Positions 4,773 through 40,856 of a stretch of 64,000 nt of DNA are shown one piece after another. Location: positions 62,001-126,000 of the forward strand of contig JAHDFB010000001.1 of NCBI GenBank assembly GCA_020628475.1, written 5' to 3'. The notes under the pieces are model-generated. The model saw nothing but the letters and a program-made list of their open reading frames with translations. It searched no databases and was not told the origin of the DNA. The translations under genes and the position numbers were made by a program. Source of the stretch: Saprospiraceae bacterium (GTDB lineage: Bacteria; Bacteroidota; Bacteroidia; Chitinophagales; Saprospiraceae). Position 1 is the first letter of the stretch; every line of letters starts with the position of its first letter.

Positions 4773-5375
4773 ATGGATGTCATTGCTGCTTTTTATAAAA
4801 ATTATTATGAAGAGAATAAAGCCTATTTCTTGGAGTTTCAATCTGAAAAATTTGGATTGACAGAGGATAACTATTGGGATACGGTCTTAGAATCTTCGAG
4901 AACAACAATCCAAGACTTTAAATCAATTGAAAAGAGATTAGAAAAGGACATACCAGAAAGTTTTAAGCATTTTTTCATGCATGCCTACTCCATATATGCA
5001 TATTTTGATCTGAGAGGAATTTCGATTGTTGGTTCGCTAAAAACCAGTCCTTTGTCAGAACTACGAAAATACTTTTTTGAACTGGGTATTTCTGAGGAAT
5101 TAATGGCGTTAGATCTTCTTCCATTTGGAGTCTATGAAGATGAATGGTATATCTGCTTGGATTTATCTCAGGACGAAGAGCATCCTCCGATTGTTTTATT
5201 TGAAATGAGTCAATGGTATAATGGAGTGGAAGCAAAATCCCACAAGAATTGGTTTTCTAATTTTGAATCTTTTATTGCTTGTATGGCATCTTATATTGAT
5301 GGAGCTTCTACGGATGCCTTTGATACGATCGATCCAGCACATCATTTTTCAACAGCATATAACTATTGGAAATGA
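4773..5375 (+). CDS. SMI1/KNR4 (SUKH)-like protein
   Basis: FKSIEKRLEKDIPESFKHFFMHAYSIYAYFDLRGISIVG..LDLLPFGVYEDEWYICLDLS fits the SUKH pattern; family call by eye only. Confidence 0.5.
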   Translation: MDVIAAFYKNYYEENKAYFLEFQSEKFGLTEDNYWDTVLESSRTTIQDFKSIEKRLEKDIPESFKHFFMHAYSIYAYFDLRGISIVGSLKTSPLSELRKYFFELGISEELMALDLLPFGVYEDEWYICLDLSQDEEHPPIVLFEMSQWYNGVEAKSHKNWFSNFESFIACMASYIDGASTDAFDTIDPAHHFSTAYNYWK

Positions 5376-5377
5376 AA

Positions 5378-5409
5378 AAAATAGCTTTTTACTACTGTGA
5401 GCTATTTTA
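5378..5409. terminator. Putative bidirectional terminator
   Basis: aaaatagct...agctatttt inverted repeat directly after the stop at 5375. Confidence 0.6.
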
Positions 5410-5474
5410 TTGTCTAGTATTCTATCGCAGAGTGCTGATCGCTTAAAAGTTTTACAGAACAGATCAATAAGGAT

Positions 5475-5578
5475 CGCACCGCGGTATGGATAGAAGCGGG
5501 TTTCATTTTCGTGTAACGAAATGAATATGAGCGGATAGCCAGGTGCACTGGCTGCATAGACAGGGCAACCGCCCTAAT
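5475..5578. repeat. Structured intergenic element E2
   Basis: Three hairpins: TTCATTTTCG(5502-5511)/CGAAATGAA(5517-5525); GCCAG(5538-5542)/CTGGC(5548-5552); GGGC(5563-5566)/GCCC(5571-5574). 3' block TGCATAG..GGCaAcCGCCCTaATCA recurs at 39318-39344. Confidence 0.6.
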
Positions 5579-5586
5579 CAAACAAC

Positions 5587-6300
5587 TTATCCTTCAAAAT
5601 GGAATGAAATCGTAAAGGTACGTGTCAGTAATTTATCGATGACTCGTGATTCATTCAGCTCGTTGTTGTAGGAAAGGATATTTCCAATTCCCTGTGACAT
5701 CTTGATTTCCGGACTAAGGATAAAGAAAGGGAAGAAAAATTGCATACCGGCACCGACCTCCAAGGAGAAATCATGTGGAACCACGGTCACGTCTTTCTGT
5801 CCGTCCTGTCTTCGCGCAAAACCATTGACATCGTAGGAGTATTTCATGCCAGCCACCACGAAGGCTCGTTTGTCCTTAAAAGGTGCTGATTTGTATCGAA
5901 TCAAAATGGGAATGTCGGCATATACAAATTCGATATTGTCATTCCGATAGGGGAGATCTTCCCCTGGTTTGTAATAGCTTAAGCTTCGCTCAGAAATCGA
6001 AAATCCCGCCAAGACACGGAAGTCGAAATAATGCCCCAATTTCAAATTGAAAATGCCTTGAAAGGTCAACCCAGGTTTCGAAATCGGTTGATTGATAGAG
6101 ATGGAATCATTGAGTATAAAATTACGGCTATGATTGACTGTAAAACTGGAATTGTTCACCGCTAAGGCGATTCCATAATAGAGTCCTTTATTCTTGAAAT
6201 CCAAGTAATTATAACTCTTGTCTACGGTGGATTGCCCGAAAGAAAACGAGCTAGCCAAGGCTACAAATAATACTATTTGACACCAGTGTAGACGGCGCAT
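5587..6300 (-). CDS. porT: PorT family outer-membrane beta-barrel protein (T9SS component candidate)
   Basis: Outer-membrane barrel with PorT-like pattern, directly downstream of ubiE. Likely start MRRLHWCQIVLF rather than the ORF-track start at 6324. Confidence 0.75.
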   Translation of the reverse strand: MRRLHWCQIVLFVALASSFSFGQSTVDKSYNYLDFKNKGLYYGIALAVNNSSFTVNHSRNFILNDSISINQPISKPGLTFQGIFNLKLGHYFDFRVLAGFSISERSLSYYKPGEDLPYRNDNIEFVYADIPILIRYKSAPFKDKRAFVVAGMKYSYDVNGFARRQDGQKDVTVVPHDFSLEVGAGMQFFFPFFILSPEIKMSQGIGNILSYNNELNESRVIDKLLTRTFTISFHFEG

Positions 6301-7001
6301 ATACCCATACTTAAACTTTCCCATTCATTATTTTTTAATCCAGCCTTTTCCATGTGGCTGACAAATTTATCGTAATCTGGAAAGGCCTGAACACTTTCGT
6401 ACAAATAACGATACGCTTTTGGATCTTTGGAAGTTAAACGACCAATCAACGGCAAAACGTATTTGAAGTATAAATTAAATCCAAATTTAAAAAGAAAAAA
6501 ACGAGGTTTGGTAAACTCGAGTACGACCATTTTACCACCGGGCTTGATCACACGAGACATTTCGGTCAATCCTTTATCTAGATTTTGGAAATTTCGAACT
6601 CCAAAGGCCACGATAGCTGCATCAAAGGTACCGTCTTCGAAGGGTAAGTTTTCCGAATCACCATTTAATAAAACGATCTTATCATTCAGATTTTTCTTGG
6701 TCAATTTCTTACGTCCTACTTCCAACATTTCGTCGGAAATGTCCACTCCCGTAATATGGTCAACCTCTAGCAGATTGTGAGCAGTGATGGCCAAATCACC
6801 TGTACCTGTAGCCACATCAAGTATTTTTTTAGCTTGACTAGCTTCTAACTTTTGAATGGCTTTTTTACGCCAACTACGATCGATACCTAAGGATAGAAAA
6901 TGATTTAGAAAATCGTACGCAGGTGCGATGCTGTTGAACATTTTACGTACCTGATTTTTCTTTTCACCTTCTTCGGAATATGGTTTTACGACTTTTTCCA
7001 C
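6273..7001 (-). CDS. ubiE: Demethylmenaquinone methyltransferase
   Basis: VRKMFNSIAPAYDFLNHFLSLGIDRSWRKKAI, LDVATGTGDLAI, AFGVRNFQNLDKGLTEMSRVIKPGG. Confidence 0.95.
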   Translation of the reverse strand: MEKVVKPYSEEGEKKNQVRKMFNSIAPAYDFLNHFLSLGIDRSWRKKAIQKLEASQAKKILDVATGTGDLAITAHNLLEVDHITGVDISDEMLEVGRKKLTKKNLNDKIVLLNGDSENLPFEDGTFDAAIVAFGVRNFQNLDKGLTEMSRVIKPGGKMVVLEFTKPRFFLFKFGFNLYFKYVLPLIGRLTSKDPKAYRYLYESVQAFPDYDKFVSHMEKAGLKNNEWESLSMGICAVYTGVK

Positions 7002-38581: not shown

Positions 38582-39073
38582 TTATTTTAGGAACTCTATT
38601 TTACAATTTTCTTTTATAAATTTTTTACCCCTTACTTTTCCAATGCAGGTTCCAAATTTATTGTTCATATATTTTTCATCTCCAAGATCTTCGCCATGAC
38701 TATTATAAATAATTTGAAATGTGAGAAGGTCTATAATAACAAAGGCAAAAGGATCTCGAATGACTAGTGTTTTACTATATTTTTTTCCTTTATATTCAAT
38801 ATCGTTGTAGATGAAAAATCGAGCTTCATCAAAACTTTCTATATCCTCTATTAATTTGAAACGGACTTTTTGATTGGTATTTTTATCGATAATTTTCACC
38901 TTTCGCTTAATCGAATGTAGGTCATCTAAAAGAAAAATTTGAACTCGATAGACATAAGTTATTTCTAAATCTTCATGTTGGAAAACTACTTTGGAATTTT
39001 TAGAGCAAGAACTAAATATCACAATGCTTGTGAATACGAGGAACAATACTTTGTATACTTTAAGGATGCGCAT
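38582..39073 (-). CDS. Hypothetical lipoprotein
   Basis: MRILKVYKVLFLVFTSIVIFSSCSKNSK lipobox. Confidence 0.65.
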   Translation of the reverse strand: MRILKVYKVLFLVFTSIVIFSSCSKNSKVVFQHEDLEITYVYRVQIFLLDDLHSIKRKVKIIDKNTNQKVRFKLIEDIESFDEARFFIYNDIEYKGKKYSKTLVIRDPFAFVIIDLLTFQIIYNSHGEDLGDEKYMNNKFGTCIGKVRGKKFIKENCKIEFLK

Positions 39074-39224
39074 TTATAAGTTCTTTTTATTTATCCTTTT
39101 CTTAGCCTTTGAAGGCTACTCTAGAATCTTCTATCTAAATATATGTAAATTCACAATATAAGTTTTTTATAACTTGAAGTCTAACAGATCATTACCTCGT
39201 AAGAAATTATGAATAGTAGCACGG

Positions 39225-39344
39225 AAATACTAGACATGCGATAGCGATAGTAACTGGCTTGACGGCGATGATCGGCGTCATGATCCTGACGCAGGAAGGA
39301 TGACCTTAGGGAAACAGTGCATAGCGCGGCCATCGCCCTTATCA
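39225..39344. repeat. Structured intergenic element E4 (same family as E2)
   Basis: Near-palindrome GACGGCGATGATCGGCGTC(39261-39279), hairpin TCCTG-ACG-CAGGA(39284-39296), 3' block TGCATAGCGCGGCCATCGCCCTTATCA. Confidence 0.6.
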
Positions 39345-39361
39345 TTATTATTCTAAAAAGC

Positions 39362-40297
39362 TTACTTTAACTTTTCGCGACTGGCTAATAGATACAGCAC
39401 GGCCATCCGGTTGGCGACGCCATTTTCGACCTGTTGCAATATGATCGAATGTTCAGAATCTGCTACATCACTGCTCAATTCCACTCCTCGATTGATCGGC
39501 CCCGGGTGCATGATAACGGGTACATTTTTCAAGGAATCGAGCAATGCCCGGTTGATACCATAATATTGGCTATACTCGCGCAATGAAGGTATGTACTGAA
39601 TATCTTGTCGTTCCAATTGTATGCGTAAAACATTGGCCACATCAGCCCATTCCAAAGTCTCTCGTAAGTTGTAGCTCACATCAACACCCAAGGTAGAAAT
39701 GTGTTTTTGAATCAATGTCGGAGGGCCACAAACTACCACTTTGGCCCCTAATTTCTTAAGGCAATATATATTGCTCAGCGCAACTCGAGAATGCTTTATA
39801 TCTCCAATAATGGCGATTTTCTTTCCTTTCAAATTTCCCAGTTGTTCGCGCATCGAATAAGCGTCCAATAGGGCCTGGGTCGGATGTTCATGGGTGCCGT
39901 CCCCAGCATTGATAATATTGGCATCTATGCGATCTGCAAGAAATTGCGGAGCTCCAGGTGCAGGATGGCGCATCACGACCATATCCACTTTCATGGATAA
40001 TATATTATTGACCGTATCTAAGAGCGTTTCTCCCTTCTTGACAGAAGAAGCGGCTGCCGAAAAGTTGACAACATCTGCACTCAACCTTTTTTCTGCTAAT
40101 TCGAAAGAAATTCGAGTCCGCGTAGAATTCTCGAAGAAGAGATTTGCCACGGTCACATCTCGTAAAGACGGTACCTTTTTGATGGGACGATTGATGACTT
40201 CTTTGAAATTGTCGGCGGTGTGAAAGATGAGTTCTATATCCTCTTTGGTGATATATTTGATTCCTAGTAGATGTTTCGTACTAAGTTGCTGATTCAT
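39362..40297 (-). CDS. pyrB: Aspartate carbamoyltransferase catalytic subunit
   Basis: FFENSTRTRISFELAEKRL, GDGTHEHPTQALLDAYSM, IMHPGPINRGVEL. Start at MNQQLSTKHLLG. Confidence 0.97.
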   Translation of the reverse strand: MNQQLSTKHLLGIKYITKEDIELIFHTADNFKEVINRPIKKVPSLRDVTVANLFFENSTRTRISFELAEKRLSADVVNFSAAASSVKKGETLLDTVNNILSMKVDMVVMRHPAPGAPQFLADRIDANIINAGDGTHEHPTQALLDAYSMREQLGNLKGKKIAIIGDIKHSRVALSNIYCLKKLGAKVVVCGPPTLIQKHISTLGVDVSYNLRETLEWADVANVLRIQLERQDIQYIPSLREYSQYYGINRALLDSLKNVPVIMHPGPINRGVELSSDVADSEHSIILQQVENGVANRMAVLYLLASREKLK

Positions 40298-40298
40298 T

Positions 40299-40856
40299 TT
40301 ATTGCTTCTTTTTATCGGCAGAGAAGAAAAGTATCCGATCTTCCGGATGTTCGTCATTCCACTCCACTTTCACATATGCTTCATCTAAGGAGTCAACATT
40401 GATTCCCGTATAATCTGCTTTGATTGGTAAATGTCGATTGAATCTTCGGTTAACTAGGGTTAAGAGTTCGACTTGGAGGGGTCTTCCAAAGTCTTGCAAT
40501 GCTGATAATGCTGCTTGTATCGTCCGTCCAGTATACAAGACATCATCTATGAGAATGACACGTTTTCCTTCGATCAAGAAATCCAACTCTGTAGAACTCG
40601 GACTTAAAGGGGTATCTCGTCTTCGGAAATCGTCCCGATAAAAGGTAATATCTAATTTTCCATATTGGAATTTGGCCTTTTTATGATTCTTTTTAATCAA
40701 GGCTATGATTCGTTCTGCAAGTAATACACCTCTTTCCTGTATTCCAATAATACAGGTATTCTCAAAATCACCATGATTTTCTATGACCTGATGGGACAAG
40801 CGCTCCAGTGTCAGCTGAAACTTGCCTTTATCCAATATGATTTTTCCTTCTTTCAT
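40299..40856 (-). CDS. pyrR: Bifunctional pyr operon regulator / uracil phosphoribosyltransferase
   Basis: IIGIQERGVLLAERI, VILIDDVLYTGRTIQAAL (PRPP motif), upstream of pyrB. Confidence 0.95.
   Translation of the reverse strand: MKEGKIILDKGKFQLTLERLSHQVIENHGDFENTCIIGIQERGVLLAERIIALIKKNHKKAKFQYGKLDITFYRDDFRRRDTPLSPSSTELDFLIEGKRVILIDDVLYTGRTIQAALSALQDFGRPLQVELLTLVNRRFNRHLPIKADYTGINVDSLDEAYVKVEWNDEHPEDRILFFSADKKKQ

Follow-up and report, generated by a model that had tools for sequence, protein, structure and literature searches.

Flavo-1-type hairpin units beside porT and pyrB of a Saprospiraceae bacterium as probable REP-like DNA repeats

Flavo-1, REP elements and the E2 locus

To our knowledge, no function has been assigned to Flavo-1 since 2010. 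The family is typed in Rfam as Gene; sRNA, and it has been counted among the bacterial sRNA families (PMC9029176). In F. psychrophilum, Flavo-1 matches were reported to occur without distinction on the sense or the antisense strand of transcribed regions, many of them being untranscribed (PMC9723704). The element described here, E2, has in common with Flavo-1 (RF01705; Weinberg et al. 2010, PMC2864571) the order of helices, an A.G mismatch, a 3x3 GNA/GGA loop and the conserved loop letters. The Rfam model corresponds to arm 1 of the E2 unit only, while the closing stem, the terminal CC and the second hairpin fall outside it.

Two kinds of DNA element are also comparable. REP/BIME sequences, which are associated with RAYT (TnpA-REP), resemble the E2 family in being short, dispersed, intergenic imperfect hairpins with many copies and no fixed strand. 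The E2 family differs in that it is longer and two-armed, lacks the GT[AG]G foot at the hairpin base and has no cognate RAYT gene that could be found. MITEs, driven by DDE transposases, differ from E2, its second copy E4 and their siblings, in which the pairing end is only 5 bp long and a target duplication is lacking; the likeness is that in a relative, G013, the core is carried within such an element.

E2 lies in a 64 kb window, the whole stretch of DNA that was analysed. The first-pass annotation of this window had placed a block of hairpins at 5475-5578, between convergent genes, with a 3' block shared with 39318-39344. In the window sequence, both motifs (ATGGATAGAAGCGG and GAGCGGATAGCC) were located where it had put them, as were the 3' block and the hairpins. 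The convergent genes were identified as a SUKH-1 (SMI1/KNR4) gene (4773..5375, + strand, PF09346) and porT/sprT (5587..6324, - strand, NCBIfam equivalog NF052311, 150.9 bits with a cut-off of 125), the nearest named relatives of the PorT being Saprospiraceae metagenome-assembled genomes. Both copies do lie just past the 3' end of a minus-strand gene, with 12 nt between the 3' end of E2 and the porT stop codon and 23 nt between E4 and that of pyrB (39362-40357, - strand). The limits of both units had to be redrawn, to 5481..5574 (+ strand, 94 bp) for E2 and to 39238..39338 (+ strand) for E4.

E2 is a complete Flavo-1-type unit, consisting of a closing stem, arm 1, arm 2 and a terminal CC. The 5' arm of the closing stem P1 (GCGGT, 5481..5485, + strand) pairs with 5568-5572 and covaries across copies. 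Its 3' arm ACCGC with the terminal CC occupies 5568..5574 (+ strand), where the family 3' end consensus is CC[AT]AA[TA]. Arm 1, the Flavo-1 hairpin (5487..5541, + strand), is made up of TGG/CCA, an A.G mismatch, TA/TA, a 3x3 purine loop GAA/GGA, GC/GC and an apical hairpin; it is supported by the RF01705 match and by covariation, and was recovered by single-strand DNA folding. Arm 2 (5542..5567, + strand) is a variable hairpin region that overlaps the palindrome AGCCAGGTGCACTGGCT (5537-5553).

E4 is the second complete unit of the window. Its closing stem is GCGAT/ATCGC and its arm 2 is nearly absent. It belongs to a sub-family whose arm 1 has GATGACCTTAGGGAAAC in its apical portion, with the siblings L204, L206, L208, L209 and L210 in the same genome. 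E2 and E4 have in common the 3' end of the closing stem and the CCCTAATCA/CCCTTATCA tail. The earlier alignment of a 28/27-nt block between them therefore holds only in part: its ends ACCGCCCTAATCA/ATCGCCCTTATCA are homologous and belong to the closing stem, as its 3' arm. TGCATAG, in contrast, corresponds in E4 to the conserved GGATAG of arm 1 and in E2 sits in the variable arm 2, so that this portion of the alignment is out of register.

Structure, copies and relation to Flavo-1

A covariance model, R1, was built from a hand alignment of eight copies, all from Saprospiraceae and including E2 and E4. In the window it found only two places, E2 (E 2.9e-8) and E4 (43.0 bits, E 3.9e-9), both of them training copies. 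Copy numbers here are lower bounds, as they refer to the best-scoring candidates per genome only. R1 found at least 18 places, mostly outside ORFs, in the genome of E2 itself and at least seven in the genus-mate G003; in seven of the eight other family members (G004-G011) there was no match at E<=0.1 among the best-scored candidates. E2 thus belongs to a set of multi-copy, extragenic, dispersed hairpins, as REP elements do. When E2 was compared by BLAST with the genome that carries it (a 61% complete assembly), no second full copy was found. The quoted motifs alone, with mismatches allowed, were not more frequent in the window than expected by chance. The copies have structure and core letters in common, not overall sequence.

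The general unit measures 75-105 bp, and its paired ends enclose the Flavo-1 hairpin and a variable second hairpin. Besides GCGGT/ACCGC in E2 and GCGAT/ATCGC in E4, the 5-bp closing stem appears elsewhere as GCGTG/CACGC, GCGTC/GACGC, GGGAT/ATCCC and GGGTG/CACCC. It is followed by CC and then usually by A/T-A-A, so that the ends read G[CG]GNN...NNC[CG]C-CC-WAA. The common plan of arm 1 is 3 bp, an A.G mismatch, 2 bp, a 3x3 loop GNA/GGA, 2 bp and an apical hairpin; the portion up to the last 2 bp, with a GNA/GGA-type loop, was present in 27 of 28 Saprospiraceae copies. Arm 2 varies in size, from nearly absent in E4 to enlarged in L024.

The stems covary, and the first-pass annotation was right to call the element dispersed and structured. 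In the hand alignment of eight copies both sides had changed in 9 of 16 pairs and 99.2% of the cells pair. With 28 copies the corresponding values were 10/16 and 95.9%, compared with 24-43% in slid versions of the alignment. As both alignments lean towards structure, an alignment-free test of the arms was added. Of 18 held-out copies, 15 contained their own 5' arm in reverse complement, followed by CC; the rate with foreign arms was 3.5%.

A chance cluster of hairpins would agree with the unremarkable folding of E2 as RNA (z=-0.55; as single-strand DNA, z -3.2). Folding energy by itself is weak evidence for E2 and the real evidence is the covariation. Together with the E-values of the model, the copy number and the held-out arms, and above all the copies in other genomes, which refute it, this leaves chance with practically no probability.

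At gathering thresholds, Rfam reported only a tRNA in the window. When a permissive threshold was used against all 4227 families, RF01705 matched at 5479-5549 (+ strand) over model positions 1-76, with 27.9 bits and E=4e-4. Flavo-1 had been named earlier as a candidate, and the full-length match bears this out, but the score is under the gathering cut-off of 42 bits, which the best copy of the same genome (29.2 bits) also misses. For this reason we class E2 as a variant related to Flavo-1 and not as a member accepted by Rfam.

Sub-threshold RF01705 matches were found at seven or more places in the own genome (E<0.05) and at twelve or more in G012, of the same family (E<=1). G013, of the same order, has at least 134 matches, many of them over the threshold. 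In a survey with the best 15 candidates scored per genome, 40 of 297 Bacteroidota genomes gave matches at E<=1e-5, in agreement with the first-pass statement that such sequences are common in this phylum. Two complete genomes of one genus, G190 and G225, had at least 30 and at least 39 matches, respectively; we take them to be Flavobacterium from the known distribution of Flavo-1.

R1, with no Flavobacterium-like sequence in it, recovers loci of G190/G225 that are above the RF01705 threshold. One of them (G190:C1:1840910) scored 59.1 bits with RF01705 and 38.2 bits (E 5e-7) with R1. The closing stem GCGNN...NNCGC was also seen in 7 of 62 copies of these two genomes. Since such intermediates score with both models, E2 can be grouped with Flavo-1 by descent, to the extent that they show it. 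When ten loci from the own genus were scanned with Rfam at E<=1, Flavo-1 was not listed, a measure of how much the copies there have diverged from the Rfam model. E2 and E4 can be described as extended, degenerate Flavo-1 members of Saprospiraceae type, and it is highly probable that E2 is a real element of Flavo-1 type reaching beyond the Rfam model. R1 extends detection to Saprospiraceae, where Rfam gives nothing above threshold. At L206 2708-2742, a match to the DUF805b cis-regulatory RNA (RF02914) was observed, with 34.5 bits, just under the gathering score of 35.6.

Placement relative to genes

The orientation of flanking genes was read along the element, as upstream/downstream gene, using simple longest ORFs and not curated calls. 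The counts were ++ 3, -- 8, +- 8 and -+ 3 in the own genus, ++ 21, -- 34, +- 40 and -+ 13 in G013, and ++ 19, -- 16, +- 8 and -+ 11 in G190/G225. Strict sense against antisense was 24 vs 42 for the own genus and G013, a weak bias, and 43 vs 58 when the Flavobacterium-like genomes were included, which is weaker still. There is no consistent strand preference relative to genes across these genomes, in agreement with the report on F. psychrophilum (PMC9723704). Under the assumption that the contig start lies near the origin, the copies of G190/G225 had no replication-strand bias.

In most copies of the own genus (19/25) and of G013 (74/108), a stop codon lies opposite the 3' end of the unit, and convergent gene pairs outnumber divergent ones (48 vs 16 in the own genus plus G013). 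These tendencies, together with the short distances from E2 and E4 to the stop codons of porT and pyrB, argue for an element of the 3' UTR or intergenic part of an mRNA, that is, a decay barrier or a Rho-dependent or other 3'-end element, like REP in enterobacterial 3' UTRs. However, avoidance of promoters accounts for the convergent excess without any function, and in G190/G225 the contexts are mixed (11 divergent, 8 convergent). Furthermore, no element was found downstream of porT in the genus-mates G001 and G003 or in more distant relatives; the next gene differs there too, so that the comparison offers no clean empty site. G002 was left out of it because its contig ends too early. A terminator scan of 5300-5700 and 39050-39420 gave no G+C-rich hairpin with a T run, and thus no terminator-like site at E2 or E4. 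An mRNA element of this kind is considered unlikely, and a 3'-UTR role for porT or pyrB is possible but unsupported. The earlier proposal of a structured RNA or processing element at gene 3' ends could not be upheld as a general rule, given the inconsistent orientation, the porT relatives and the terminator scan.

Positions 5383-5415, between the SUKH stop codon and E2, contain a palindrome rich in A/T (AATAGCT...AGCTATT), and both strands have T runs there. It was missed by the terminator scan, probably owing to its low G+C content. This palindrome could be a bidirectional terminator, which would put E2 within the porT 3' UTR.

DNA-level features and mobility

The base pairs of the core helices comprised 1392 Watson-Crick, 14 G.T, 6 A.C and 23 other cells, so that G.T accounts for about 1%. 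The stems of 15 distinct tRNAs from the same fetched loci contained 8.1% G.T. More frequent passage through G.U would be expected if an RNA were under selection, but the strong conservation of the core weakens this comparison. The family fold was recovered in 10 of 22 copies with single-strand DNA energy parameters and in 8 of 22 with RNA ones. As this difference is small, the striking z values of E2 were not used as proof.

According to the Rfam typing, E2 would be the gene of a trans-acting small RNA. The covariation supports a folded strand, and in RNA folding the Flavo-1 strand recovers the family fold far better than its complement (8 and 0 of 22 copies, respectively), as this explanation would predict. 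Against it stand the dozens to more than 100 non-identical copies per genome, the lack of a promoter- or terminator-like site at E2 and the indistinct, often untranscribed matches of F. psychrophilum. In view of the many copies, the inconsistent strand, the absence downstream of porT in relatives and the 1% of G.T pairs, the placement is unlike that of an sRNA or a cis-regulatory RNA, and a small RNA gene is regarded as very improbable.

In G013, the Flavo-1 core lies in the middle of MITEs of about 250 bp (L088-L167, e.g. L091 2041-2286 and L147 7110-7357) with 12-bp terminal inverted repeats GACAAGTTTATC and 8-bp target duplications. The flanking 8-mers were 0.733 identical, compared with 0.427 after shuffling (maximum of 54% in 500 shuffles), and no comparable signal was seen at other lengths. 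This shows that the Flavo-1 core moved as DNA in the G013 lineage. In 23 Saprospiraceae copies no target-site duplication was detected at any offset tried, nor was a clean empty site found.

If E2 were a RAYT-driven REP element, the repeat would have to flank a cognate gene for a Y1 HUH transposase. In favour of this reading are the size, the hairpin and the dispersal of the unit, its asymmetric end, which resembles a foot (CCWAA, or TTWGG on the opposite strand), and the report of atypical structures flanking the subclass 2.6 TnpA genes of Bacteroidetes (PMC6006769). No Y1_Tnp gene was found in G000-G003, of which G000 and G001 are incomplete, or in G237, and copies are present in all of them (at least seven in the near-complete G003 and at least 15 in G237). 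In addition, 32 Y1_Tnp loci (12 + 20) were scanned, and at the thresholds applied no Flavo-1 match lay closer to any of them than about 1.5 kb; subclass-2.6-like Y1 genes were flanked by other repeats. RAYT was rejected as the mobiliser on these grounds, and this explanation is largely refuted. By visual inspection, a single degenerate unit was noticed in L048, with about 100 nt between it and an IS200-type gene. The Y1 transposase genes of L051, L053, L056 and L058 lie amid repeats of their own, e.g. CCAAGGTTTTGCTCCGATGGAGCAAGGTT arrays in L051, which are candidate Bacteroidota REP families.

E2 and E4 are best explained as REP-like dispersed hairpin DNA repeats, with a probability of roughly 0.6. 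One strand would fold into a hairpin whose purine-purine internal loops are conserved, the folded form being probably single-stranded DNA and not RNA, and a putative enzyme acting in trans would copy the unit around the genome. The Saprospiraceae copies would then have spread by transposition and would be tolerated mainly between genes, the unit working, or having once worked, as a REP-like repeat. Any effect on porT or pyrB, such as slower 3' mRNA decay, would be a side effect. A broader suggestion, which we make tentatively, is that Flavo-1 may not be a small-RNA family but a group of Bacteroidota-wide mobile hairpin DNA repeats, recognised in single-stranded form by a non-RAYT enzyme and occasionally captured by MITEs. 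The exact-ended extended unit, its strand-indifferent placement, the scarce wobble pairs and the carriage by MITEs make a DNA-level origin directly testable. Such an origin, if true, would mean that many Bacteroidota genomes need their annotation corrected.

In G013, Flavo-1 units were also observed in groups of two to four with spacings of 0.5-2 kb (L088 4099-8400, L089 1262-1841 and L090 2100-6700), with small toxin-antitoxin-like genes between the units. These groups resemble cassette arrays, but their orientation is mixed. The idea of integron attC sites was set aside because of the mixed orientations and because no attC-like core was seen. Four of the 28 units (L202 252-331, L069 84-170, L211 80-165 and L084 6919-6987) lie no more than about 330 bases from a contig end, as if near-identical copies had broken the assembly.
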